64,000 bases of DNA from Thermoplasmata archaeon (GTDB taxonomy: Archaea > Thermoplasmatota > Thermoplasmata > Lutacidiplasmatales > UBA184): the NCBI GenBank assembly GCA_021816865.1, contig JAKAWX010000005.1, positions 1 through 64,000 on the forward strand, in the 5' to 3' direction. The notes below the pieces were generated by a model. That model made no database searches. It saw nothing but the letters and a program-made list of their open reading frames with translations, and had not been told where the DNA came from. The position numbers and the translations under genes are program-made. Below are positions 48,225 through 51,526 of the stretch, in pieces; within the stretch, counting starts at the first letter, position 1; every line of letters begins with the position of its first letter.

Positions 48225-48417
48225 GGCGCCGGACGCGTGGGTCCCCGAGCCGAAGAAGGTCGCGGGGGTCGGTCGGGAACGAGTTCCGGCACGGAGGTCG
48301 GACGGGCCCGAACGATCGCCCTCGTCTCTCCGGTCTTGTCAGGACGCCGATGCTCGACCGGGACCGGCCTCGAGGCCGGCTTCGGGCCCGTACGCGGTCC
48401 GGAACCCGGGGCAAGGA

Positions 48418-48426
48418 GCTATCTTT
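48418..48426 (+). promoter_or_regulatory. TATA-like box of the SIS-domain gene
   Basis: GCTATCTTT, about 25 bases before the GTG at 48447. Confidence 0.4.
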
Positions 48427-48446
48427 CGGAGCCCCTCTGCGGGGAG

Positions 48447-49541
48447 GTGGAGATCGAACTCCCCGGGCCCGAGGACCCGAAGCCCCCCTACGGACGAACC
48501 GTACACCCTTACTTTCTTCACGACATGATCCGTTCGCAGCCCCGCGCGATCGCTGCGACGGTACGGGAGGCCCAGCGGCGGGCCCGATCGATCTCGGCGC
48601 CGCCCGCGGGGCGCCCTCTCCTCTTCGTCGGCATGGGCACGTCGTTCCACGCCGCGGTCGCGAGCGCGAGGGGGGCCGAAGCGGCGTTCGGCCCGGGACG
48701 ACCGTGCCGTCCGGTCGACGCGTTTGAGCTTCTCCTCGAACCGGACCGGATCACGGGAGCCGGAGCGGCGATCGTCTTCTCGTCATCGGGCGAGACCGCG
48801 CTCACCCTCCGGGCTCAGGAGGCCCTCCGCGCCGGCGGCGTGCCGCAGACTCTGATCACGGGCACCGCTCGCAGTCGGTCGGCGGAGCTGGCCGACCATG
48901 TCGTCCTCACGCAGGAAGCGACGGAAGCGGCCTGGGTCCACACGGTGAGCTACACGACCGCGGTCGCGGCCGCCCTCTCGCTCGAGCGAGAGTGGGCGGG
49001 CCGGCCGGCGGACGACCTCTTGGCGGTCGACGCGGCGGTGGCGAGCACGGTCGAGCGCGAGACCGACTGGAAGCGGCTCGCCGAAGGAGTGCGCGACTGC
49101 CCGAAGTTCCTCTGCCTCGGCTCCGGGTACGCCGAGGCCACGGCCCGGGAGGCCGCGCTCAAGCTCCGGGAAGGTGCGGCGAGGTTCGTCGCCTGGACCG
49201 GGGTGGAAGAGTTCCTCCACGGGGTCCTCCCTTCCGTCGGTCCCGGCACGGCCGTGCTGGCGCTCGCGACGTCTCCCGTCGAGCGGCGCCGGGCCGAGAC
49301 GGCCGTGCGGGCCGCAGGGCGGGCCGGGGCGAAGACCGCATGGTTCCACCGGGGGCCTCCAGATCCCGGCACCGAAGAGTTCGAGCTCCCGGCCGTCACC
49401 GGCTCCCTCACCCCTCTGGTGGATGTCGTTCCGTTCCAGTTCCTGACGTACTGGCTCGCGGTCGGTGAGAACCGTAACCCCGACGTCATGGGGTTTGACG
49501 ATCCCCGGATTCTCGCCGCGCGCCGTACGTACGGGATCTGA
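48447..49541 (+). CDS. SIS-domain sugar isomerase (GlmS isomerase-like, no glutaminase domain)
   Basis: A 364-residue protein with two SIS domains like the isomerase half of GlmS: GMGTSFHAAVASARGAE, SSSGETALTL, GSGYAEATAREAALKLREGA and EFLHGVLPS with the conserved Glu and His. The N-terminal glutaminase domain is missing, so it would use ammonia or a different nitrogen source, or act as an aldose-ketose isomerase such as AgaS. The GTG at 48447 is placed about 25 bases below GCTATCTTT and just before HPYFLHDMIRSQP, the usual entry to this fold. The longer upstream frame is noise. Confidence 0.85.
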   Translation: MEIELPGPEDPKPPYGRTVHPYFLHDMIRSQPRAIAATVREAQRRARSISAPPAGRPLLFVGMGTSFHAAVASARGAEAAFGPGRPCRPVDAFELLLEPDRITGAGAAIVFSSSGETALTLRAQEALRAGGVPQTLITGTARSRSAELADHVVLTQEATEAAWVHTVSYTTAVAAALSLEREWAGRPADDLLAVDAAVASTVERETDWKRLAEGVRDCPKFLCLGSGYAEATAREAALKLREGAARFVAWTGVEEFLHGVLPSVGPGTAVLALATSPVERRRAETAVRAAGRAGAKTAWFHRGPPDPGTEEFELPAVTGSLTPLVDVVPFQFLTYWLAVGENRNPDVMGFDDPRILAARRTYGI

Positions 49542-49629: not shown

Positions 49630-50403
49630 TCACGCGATCGTGTCGAGCCGGGGGATGTCGAAGTAGCCCTTCAGTCGGGCACCGAGCGTTGGGGCAGCGG
49701 AGTGGAGGCCGCACTCCTTGGTCCCTTCCTCCCACCACCAGCGACCGCTGCGGGGGTCGGCTTCGGCGGGGACGGCCCGAGTGCAGGGAGCGCACCCGAT
49801 GCTGACGAATCCCCGGGAGTGGAGCGCGCTCACGGGCACCCCGTGTTGGCGCACGTAGCGCTGGACGTCGTCCCAGCTCCAATCGCTGAGCGGGCTCACC
49901 TTGTACATCCCCGGGTGGGAGGGGTCGGCGGCGAATTTGGGCGTGGTCGACCGCTCGGCCGACTGATCGCGTCGCAGGCCGACAATCCACGCTTGGGCGC
50001 CCTTCAGCGCCCGGTCGAGCGGTCGGACCTTTCGTACCGAGCAACAGAGCTTGCGACTCTCGACGGAGTCGTAGAAGAGGTTCGGCCCCCTCTCGTTCAC
50101 CATCCGTTCGACCTCACCGGCCTCGGGGAAGACGAGCTCGATCGGCACGCCGTACGTGCGTCGTGCCTCCGCGATGAGGTCGTAGGTCTCGGGGAAGAGC
50201 CGGCCCGTGTCCAGGCTCACGATGCGGATCCCGCCCGCGCCCGCCAGCCGGCCGCGCGCGATCATGTCGAGAACGACCATGTCCTCGGCGCCGAAGCTGC
50301 AGGCGAACACCGCGGTCCCCGGGAACCGCTCCGCGGTCCAACGGACCAGCTGCTCGGCGCTCGCCGCCTCCCACTCCGCCCCCGTCACCTCGGACGCCAA
50401 CAT
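49630..50403 (-). CDS. cysH: APS/PAPS reductase with iron-sulfur cysteines
   Basis: A 257-residue sulfonucleotide reductase that turns APS (or PAPS) into sulfite. It has the PP-loop-like SFGAED (36-41) and the [4Fe-4S] ligands CC (120-121) and CxxC (204-207) of APS-using enzymes. The catalytic Cys231 is in ECGLH, which forms the thiosulfonate intermediate. The iron-sulfur set points to APS as substrate and not PAPS. The ATG at 50403 is preceded by the TATA-like CCTTATAC about 25 bases above, so the message is leaderless. It is divergent from a ComA-type gene that would use sulfite. Thioredoxin or a similar donor is needed; none is adjacent. Confidence 0.95.
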   Translation of the reverse strand: MLASEVTGAEWEAASAEQLVRWTAERFPGTAVFACSFGAEDMVVLDMIARGRLAGAGGIRIVSLDTGRLFPETYDLIAEARRTYGVPIELVFPEAGEVERMVNERGPNLFYDSVESRKLCCSVRKVRPLDRALKGAQAWIVGLRRDQSAERSTTPKFAADPSHPGMYKVSPLSDWSWDDVQRYVRQHGVPVSALHSRGFVSIGCAPCTRAVPAEADPRSGRWWWEEGTKECGLHSAAPTLGARLKGYFDIPRLDTIA

Positions 50404-50424
50404 CGTCCCCCGTTCGTCCGTGGA

Positions 50425-50432
50425 GTATAAGG
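50425..50432 (-). promoter_or_regulatory. TATA box of cysH
   Basis: CCTTATAC on the minus strand, centred about 25 bases before the ATG at 50403. It lies in the AT-rich region shared with the divergent gene. Confidence 0.6.
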
Positions 50433-50465
50433 GCTCAATTACCGCACCCTATATCGAGATGCAGA

Positions 50466-50508
50466 TGGTAAAATATCGTCTAGTATACGACCGATACAAC
50501 TAATACTT
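50466..50508 (+). promoter_or_regulatory. AT-rich control region with several TATA-like elements
   Basis: GTAAAATATC, TAGTATACG and ACTAATACTT lie within 45 bases. The last is about 33 bases before the ATG at 50537. This is by far the most AT-rich stretch in the window and could bind a regulator that controls both divergent genes. Confidence 0.5.
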
Positions 50509-50536
50509 GCATGTAGGATGGCCCTTTAGGGTCCAC

Positions 50537-51526
50537 ATGGGGTTCCTAGAGACCGTCATTTCGGCCCCTCGCACGAAGCCCCGCCGACGCGGGCTGACGA
50601 TGGTGCTCGACCGCCTCGCCGGGGACCCGCGACCGTTCGTCGAGGCGCTCGCACCGTACATCGACGTCGTCAAGATCGGCTGGGGGATCCCGGTCCTGCT
50701 CCAGGACGCCGTCCTCTCCCGGCGCGTGGCGCTGTACCGGGACCACGACATCCACGTCTCGAACGGGGGGACCCTTCTCGAGCTCGCGGTCGCGAAGGGC
50801 CGCCACCGAAAGGCGCTCGAGGGGTTCGTCCGCGCCGGGTTCGACACGGTCGAACTGAGCGAGGGGGTGATCGACATACCCGCCCGCGTCCAGCGGGAGA
50901 TCGTCGAGTTCGTCCGCTCCAAAGGACTCCGCCTCCACTGGGAGGTCGGCCGAAAGAGCCTTCACCACCAGTTGAGCCTCGAAGAGACGATCGTGAGGTC
51001 CCAGCGCGCGCTCGACTTCCGGCCGGAGACCCTGATCATCGAGGGCCGGGAGAGCGGGAAGGGGGTGGAGATCTACGACGACGGGGGGGCGATCAAGTGG
51101 GACTGGGTGGACCGGCTGCGTGCAGCGGTGCCGCCCGACTTCCTCATGTTCGAGACGCCGCTCGAGATCCAGCAGACGGAGATGGTGCTTCGCCTCGGGC
51201 CCGACGTCAACCTCGGGAACATCTCGTTCTCCAGCGTGGCGGCGCTCGAGACCCAGCGCGAAGGATTGCGGGGCGACACGTTCGGGGTCGTCGCTCCCGT
51301 GCCCCAGACGGTCGTGAGCCCGGCGGGGAAGTTCGTCTACCACATCCTGAGGACCCAGGGCGTCCTCGACCAGGGCAGGATCATGGAGCTCACGGGCCTC
51401 AACCGCCGGACGGTCCAGTACGCGCTCGATGCGCTCGTCTTTGCCCGCGCGGTGAGGGTCGGGAAGGACTCCCGCGATCTGAGGCGTCGTCTGTACGAGT
51501 GCGTGTCGAACCTGCCCGCGGAGTGA
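50537..51526 (+). CDS. Phosphosulfolactate synthase (ComA)-like protein fused to a winged helix
   Basis: A 329-residue protein. Residues 1-258 match the ComA TIM barrel, which adds sulfite to PEP to give phosphosulfolactate. The visible matches are YIDVVKIGWGIPVLL, GTLLELAVAKGR, GFDTVELSEG, LHWEVGRKS, IIEGRESGKGVEIYD and NLGNISF. Residues 259-329 form a winged-helix domain (RIMELTGLNRRTVQYALDAL with a basic wing), which normal ComA (about 250 residues) lacks. It may be an enzyme that also controls transcription, or a sulfite/PEP-sensing regulator derived from ComA. The ATG at 50537 is preferred; a TTG at 50507 overlaps the promoter. Confidence 0.85.
   Translation: MGFLETVISAPRTKPRRRGLTMVLDRLAGDPRPFVEALAPYIDVVKIGWGIPVLLQDAVLSRRVALYRDHDIHVSNGGTLLELAVAKGRHRKALEGFVRAGFDTVELSEGVIDIPARVQREIVEFVRSKGLRLHWEVGRKSLHHQLSLEETIVRSQRALDFRPETLIIEGRESGKGVEIYDDGGAIKWDWVDRLRAAVPPDFLMFETPLEIQQTEMVLRLGPDVNLGNISFSSVAALETQREGLRGDTFGVVAPVPQTVVSPAGKFVYHILRTQGVLDQGRIMELTGLNRRTVQYALDALVFARAVRVGKDSRDLRRRLYECVSNLPAE

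Follow-up and report, generated by a model that had tools for sequence, protein, structure and literature searches.

Regulators such as BirA, PutA, NadR and the ROK repressors combine an enzyme fold with a DNA-binding domain, and metabolite binding controls transcription, an arrangement that is also proposed for the protein considered here. We know of no enzyme-derived regulator that contains the barrel of ComA (phosphosulfolactate synthase; PF02679) or that is tied to sulfite metabolism. In bacteria, cys genes are controlled by CysB and Cbl, LysR-type regulators that respond to a sulfur-pathway ligand; their role is alike, and their architecture is unrelated. To our knowledge, sulfite sensing and the control of sulfate assimilation in archaea are largely unknown. 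The ordinary ComA proteins 1qwg from M. jannaschii (251 aa) and 1u83 from B. subtilis (YitD; 276 aa) lack a winged helix. The protein described below carries one fused to the ComA barrel (ComA-wHTH), and sequence comparisons suggest that, in acid-loving archaea, it probably represents a type of sulfite-responsive regulator that has not been described before.

The window, a 64,000-nucleotide stretch of DNA from a Thermoplasmata archaeon, belongs to contig 11 in a Lutacidiplasmatales-like host genome of 1.54 Mb that is 83% complete. In the named collections, the host's relatives are MAGs of Thermoplasmata, Ca. Lutacidiplasma and UBA184 among them, and many come from acidic soils and mine waters (in part from PMC9287336). 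In the window, cysH and the ComA-wHTH gene are divergently transcribed, and both ORFs are real and conserved (Table 1). The region between them had been described as AT-rich in an earlier note made from the sequence alone; this holds relative to the flanking GC-rich genes, and in absolute terms the 133 bp are 48% GC. A GlmS-like SIS-domain protein lacking a glutaminase domain (48237-49541) converges on cysH.

Table 1. Features of the divergent cysH/ComA-wHTH locus (positions within the window)
Feature	Position	Strand	Description
cysH	49630..50403	-	APS-reductase-type (4Fe-4S) APS/PAPS reductase, 257 aa; predicted sulfite maker
Shared divergent control region	50404..50536		133 bp, 48% GC; from sequence
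Candidate operator TCGTCTA-G-TATACGA	50476..50490		Imperfect inverted repeat, 6/7 pairs, overlapping a TATA-like stretch
ComA-wHTH protein	50537..51526	+	329 aa from ATG 50537; PF02679
ComA (beta/alpha)8 barrel	50582..51286	+	Residues ~16-250; K140 = M. jannaschii K137
Flexible linker	51287..51310	+	Residues 251-258; pLDDT <50
MarR-like winged helix	51320..51502	+	Residues 262-322; recognition helix 290-302, invariant R-R-T-x-Q core

In profile searches, the CysH protein matches the PAPS_reduct domain (PF01507) with 156.8 bits and PRK02090.1 with 260 bits, and falls just under the cut-off of the APS reductase family TIGR02055 (234.0 against 235.3 bits). It contains cysteines at positions 35, 120, 121, 204, 207 and 231, of which 120/121/204/207/231 make up a CC...CxxC...KECGLH pattern. 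This is the cysteine set of the 4Fe-4S APS reductases, with a CC...CxxC cluster and a C-terminal catalytic cysteine. The domain match and these residues confirm the APS-type reductase that had been recognized from Cys 120-121, 204, 207 and 231.

The barrel of the ComA-wHTH protein scores 216.2 bits against PF02679, for which the curated cut-off is 25.2, and the match to M. jannaschii phosphosulfolactate synthase (1qwg; E 6e-43) spans the whole barrel, residues 27-262 of a 339-aa reading from an alternative start, TTG 50507. A length of 329 aa is more probable, because close homologues start where ATG 50537 lies. The protein misses the TIGR03849 equivalog cut-off (214.1 against 280). In an AlphaFold2 (AF2) model with a mean pLDDT of 89.6, the barrel is confident and a winged helix is confidently predicted at residues 261-320 (pLDDT 85-93), with helices at 262-274, 279-286 and 290-302 and strands at 306-310 and 318-322; the isolated C-terminal domain is predicted to adopt the same fold. 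Foldseek matches the isolated tail best to MarR-family regulators (6pcp, E 8e-5, TM 0.82); the tail is a domain of about 70 residues, and the TM by target length is 0.46. The complete MarR architecture, with its dimerization helices, is not found in the tail. The model and the MarR-type matches thus support the earlier note, in which a winged helix added to a ComA-like protein had been proposed.

A scan of species genomes gave 78 related loci. Fused proteins are found in Thermoplasmata, in a few Nitrososphaeria and in one further class of Thermoplasmatota, and ordinary ComA proteins without a winged helix occur in Bacillota, Actinomycetota and the Thermoplasmatota family f27. In a tree built from the barrel only, all 76 fused rows form one clade (support 97/87) apart from ordinary ComA, with a warning from the tree program of long branches near this fork. 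Since the fused proteins are monophyletic in this tree, a single origin of the fusion is probable. The window protein belongs to clade A (29 rows; 100/99), clade B comprises 45 rows (100/100), and two single fused rows lie outside both. One locus (L144), labelled clade B from ORF length only, is an ordinary ComA. Close homologues at three loci (L080, L082 and L134) lie in MAGs titled 'bacterium' (clean3188, DX1.bin10), and their genes look like those of Thermoplasmata.

In clade A, about 25 distinct loci have the ComA-wHTH gene and cysH in divergent orientation, representing about two dozen species and several families, including Ca. Sysuiplasma and Thermogymnomonas acidicola. Because the divergent pair recurs in this way, it is not a product of chance. 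The spacing between the two genes is mostly 110-140 bp, with 110-139 bp in 15 related loci whose orthologous intergenic regions were compared with that of the window, and sat directly follows cysH in most clade A loci; in the host genome sat lies apart from cysH (G000:C11:110264-110890). In Thermogymnomonas acidicola JCM 13583, cysH-sat and a sulfite reductase gene face a ComA-wHTH gene; the draft sequence interrupts the frame of the latter, which may reflect sequencing error or decay.

An even sample of the phylum yielded 12 genomes of family f19 with ComA-wHTH, ten of which have a divergent cysH within the flank. Among 30 f19 genomes at least 91% complete, and with CysH matches of E >1e-5 not counted, CysH is present in 11 of the 12 with ComA-wHTH and in none of the 18 without it (Fisher p 2.2e-7, a value that overstates independence, as the genomes are related). 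In one of these genomes (G289), both genes are present on different contigs; in another (G259), the search found ComA-wHTH and no CysH. The functional link between the two genes, first proposed from the window and said there to be weakened if relatives lacked the neighbouring cysH, is thus strongly upheld in relatives.

No cysH adjoins the clade B ComA-wHTH genes in the gene neighbourhoods examined. The host itself encodes a second, clade B paralogue (G000:C11:139891-140817; L027, L063), located beside an SDR gene with no adjacent cysH. Neighbours of clade B genes in several genomes include short-chain dehydrogenase, alpha-amylase, GH15 and ROK proteins. In two genomes (L122, L123), a clade B gene is found directly 3' of sat on the same strand.

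Taken with a certain reserve, but as somewhat better than an even prospect, we favour a one-component regulator whose barrel senses sulfite or a sulfite-derived ligand and which controls cysH(-sat) and its own gene. The ComA barrel, with its retained active-site-type residues, would be the sensor. The ligand would probably be sulfite (with PEP) or a sulfonate derived from it, and the MarR-like winged helix would act at the shared control region on the cysH(-sat) operon and on the ComA-wHTH gene, by repression or activation. The cell could thereby match sulfite production to demand and avoid a build-up of sulfite. Regulation of cysH together with sulfite sensing is the most economical inference, and consumption of sulfite as well is possible. 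Counted in favour of a regulator are the recurring divergent pair, the near-strict co-occurrence with CysH in family f19, the MarR-like tail, the single clade of fused proteins, the invariant active-site-type residues and the motif enriched in intergenic regions of relatives (below). Counted against a regulator are the ComA-wHTH genome without CysH, the clade B genes without an adjacent cysH and an operator candidate in the window that is not above chance.

Winged helices can also serve as protein-protein modules. If this one mediated protein contacts or oligomerization rather than DNA binding, the linkage to cysH would be metabolic and not regulatory, and the weak operator statistics in the window are consistent with this. 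However, conservation within the tail is highest in the recognition helix, with R38, R39, T40 and Q42 (domain numbering) invariant in 22 proteins, and the gene adjoins the promoter region that it shares with cysH. A role confined to protein contacts is for these reasons considered decidedly improbable.

Within the control region of the window, the number of inverted repeats is not above that in shuffled sequences (p about 0.75), and TCGTCTA-G-TATACGA is a weak candidate operator, not significant on its own statistics. It resembles TTCRTATA, a motif enriched in relatives, which occurs 17 times in 1.56 kb from 12 clade A intergenic regions compared with nine times in the other 140 kb that these loci comprise; these sequences are related, and the motif was first noticed in the same 12 regions in which it was counted. 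Most of the more diverged loci that had been set aside for testing lack it (three in 2.4 kb against six in 56 kb), and it was rejected as a universal clade A operator on this ground. Most of the intergenic regions that carry it have it at -28 from the comA start, the position of the TATA box of leaderless genes, and it may simply be that TATA box. The region upstream of the host's own sat contains no such site. A motif obtained by EM from clade B upstream regions proved to be conserved coding sequence and was discarded. When sequences were anchored on the start, a TCCTGCGCAGGA-like palindrome was seen about 24 bp before it in part of the clade B promoters. These motifs are leads to operators rather than proof of them.

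The main rival to a sensor is a trigger enzyme: the barrel would be an active phosphosulfolactate synthase and use up sulfite from CysH, as a sink or for detoxification, with the winged helix tying expression of its own gene and of cysH to turnover. The polar residues E82, E106, E136, K140, E169, R171, E172, E206, Q212, Q213, N228, R241 and R245 occupy thirteen positions that ordinary ComA also conserves, and all are invariant in the 29 clade A proteins. K140, the equivalent of Lys137 of M. jannaschii ComA, is among these active-site-type residues. The loss of ComA catalytic residues, named beforehand as a result that would speak against the proposal, was looked for in the alignment of these 29 proteins and not found. 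Such conservation is equally compatible with an enzyme and with a sensor. Against the trigger enzyme, two positions beside the active-site residues have changed throughout the fused family: of the 74 proteins in clades A and B, 73 have E at the position of M. jannaschii K209 and 72 have I or L at that of T48 (M or T in the others), whereas most ordinary ComA proteins keep both. From the order of secondary structures, the two positions are expected to be close to the end of the barrel at which catalysis takes place. Because the active-site-type residues are kept, T48 and K209 are changed and the TIGR03849 equivalog score is not reached, it appears that catalysis is possible and that specificity may have shifted.

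The distribution of other sulfite-related genes also bears on the trigger enzyme. Presence and absence in the host were determined by family searches of the 83% complete genome, and all statements of absence from MAGs are limited by their incompleteness. Of 16 genomes with a clade A gene, 15, the host included, gave no siroheme sulfite reductase (NIR_SIR), so that sulfite would need another sink; the exception is T. acidicola, in which the gene lies just after sat. A simple assimilatory operon with sulfite reductase as its last step was rejected, as only T. acidicola has one in clade A. Sulfite oxidation has been proposed for the order in a published genome analysis of Lutacidiplasmatales, which makes no mention of ComA or sulfolactate (PMC9287336).

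ComB (PF04029), through which the product of a trigger enzyme could go on to sulfolactate in those Thermoplasmata that have it, was detected in 13 of the 15 clade A relatives tested. However, it is absent from the host by family search and missing from the two nearest sister genomes of clade A tested, and none of the tested clade B genomes yielded it. Genomes of family f19 contain ComB just as often whether or not they have ComA, and the gene lies far from that of ComA-wHTH; in four genomes of family f27 (G087, G175, G249 and G401) an ordinary ComA lies directly beside ComB, which is likely to represent a true phosphosulfolactate pathway. A coenzyme-M route in the host was rejected, because ComB is absent there and does not track ComA-wHTH elsewhere. 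The sulfolactate or coenzyme-M-like thiol suggested in the earlier note is unsupported for the same reasons. Of its two proposals for the module, sulfite fixing or sulfite sensing, the second, with regulation, is the better supported. A trigger enzyme is on balance regarded as rather unlikely.

Another fate for the sulfite is suggested by a Nitrososphaerales archaeon (JOPF010), in which a UDP-sulfoquinovose synthase gene (NF041015, 592 bits, over the cut-off) converges on ComA-wHTH in a glycosylation cluster, with glycosyltransferases and a flippase upstream (L096:1-3359 and L097; these contigs share a 508-bp overlap with 98% identity). The synthase is another consumer of sulfite, and it was counted in favour of the regulator. 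In a variant of the favoured explanation, the sulfite from CysH would be used to make UDP-sulfoquinovose for surface glycans, and ComA-wHTH would regulate that branch and not general sulfur assimilation. Glycosyltransferase and GmhA genes beside ComA-wHTH in two f19 genomes (G289 and G259) are consistent with this variant, as is an Agl3 homologue listed for Thermoplasma acidophilum (PMC4388408). Set against it, no SQD1/Agl3-like protein was found in the clade A neighbourhoods examined, such a protein in the host was rejected as none occurs among the epimerase-family loci of that genome, and T. acidicola instead has its sulfite reductase. Restriction of the regulator to a sulfosugar branch is accordingly thought unlikely.

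If the favoured regulator is taken further, ComA-wHTH could define a new class of archaeal transcription factor and the first sulfite sensor of its kind, in which the barrel would detect sulfite by carrying out, or imitating, the reaction of PEP with sulfite; clades A and B would be two ancient subfamilies, with clade A governing sulfite production and clade B a second, unlinked regulon. This is a tentative proposal, held with rather less than even confidence. The fate of sulfite made by CysH in archaea lacking sulfite reductase is a puzzle, and a conserved fusion, apparently of single origin, that tracks CysH offers a testable set of protein, promoter and ligand; T. acidicola is a cultured relative with a ComA-wHTH locus. 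Annotation as 'phosphosulfolactate synthase' in Thermoplasmata should not be taken as evidence of coenzyme-M synthesis.

Compared with described ComA proteins, ComA-wHTH retains the whole barrel and the equivalents of M. jannaschii K137, E133, E168, R170, E171, E205, Q211, Q212, R240 and R244. It differs in its fusion to a MarR-like winged helix, in the substitutions at K209 and T48, in its score below the TIGR03849 cut-off and in the location of its gene beside cysH and not comB. With MarR regulators (BpsR 6pcp, PcaV 4fht, MepR and MarR) it shares the winged-helix fold (TM ~0.8 over 70 residues) and a divergent gene arrangement typical of local regulators. Unlike these, it has no dimerization helices, and the ligand-binding or oligomerizing part would be the N-terminal ComA barrel.
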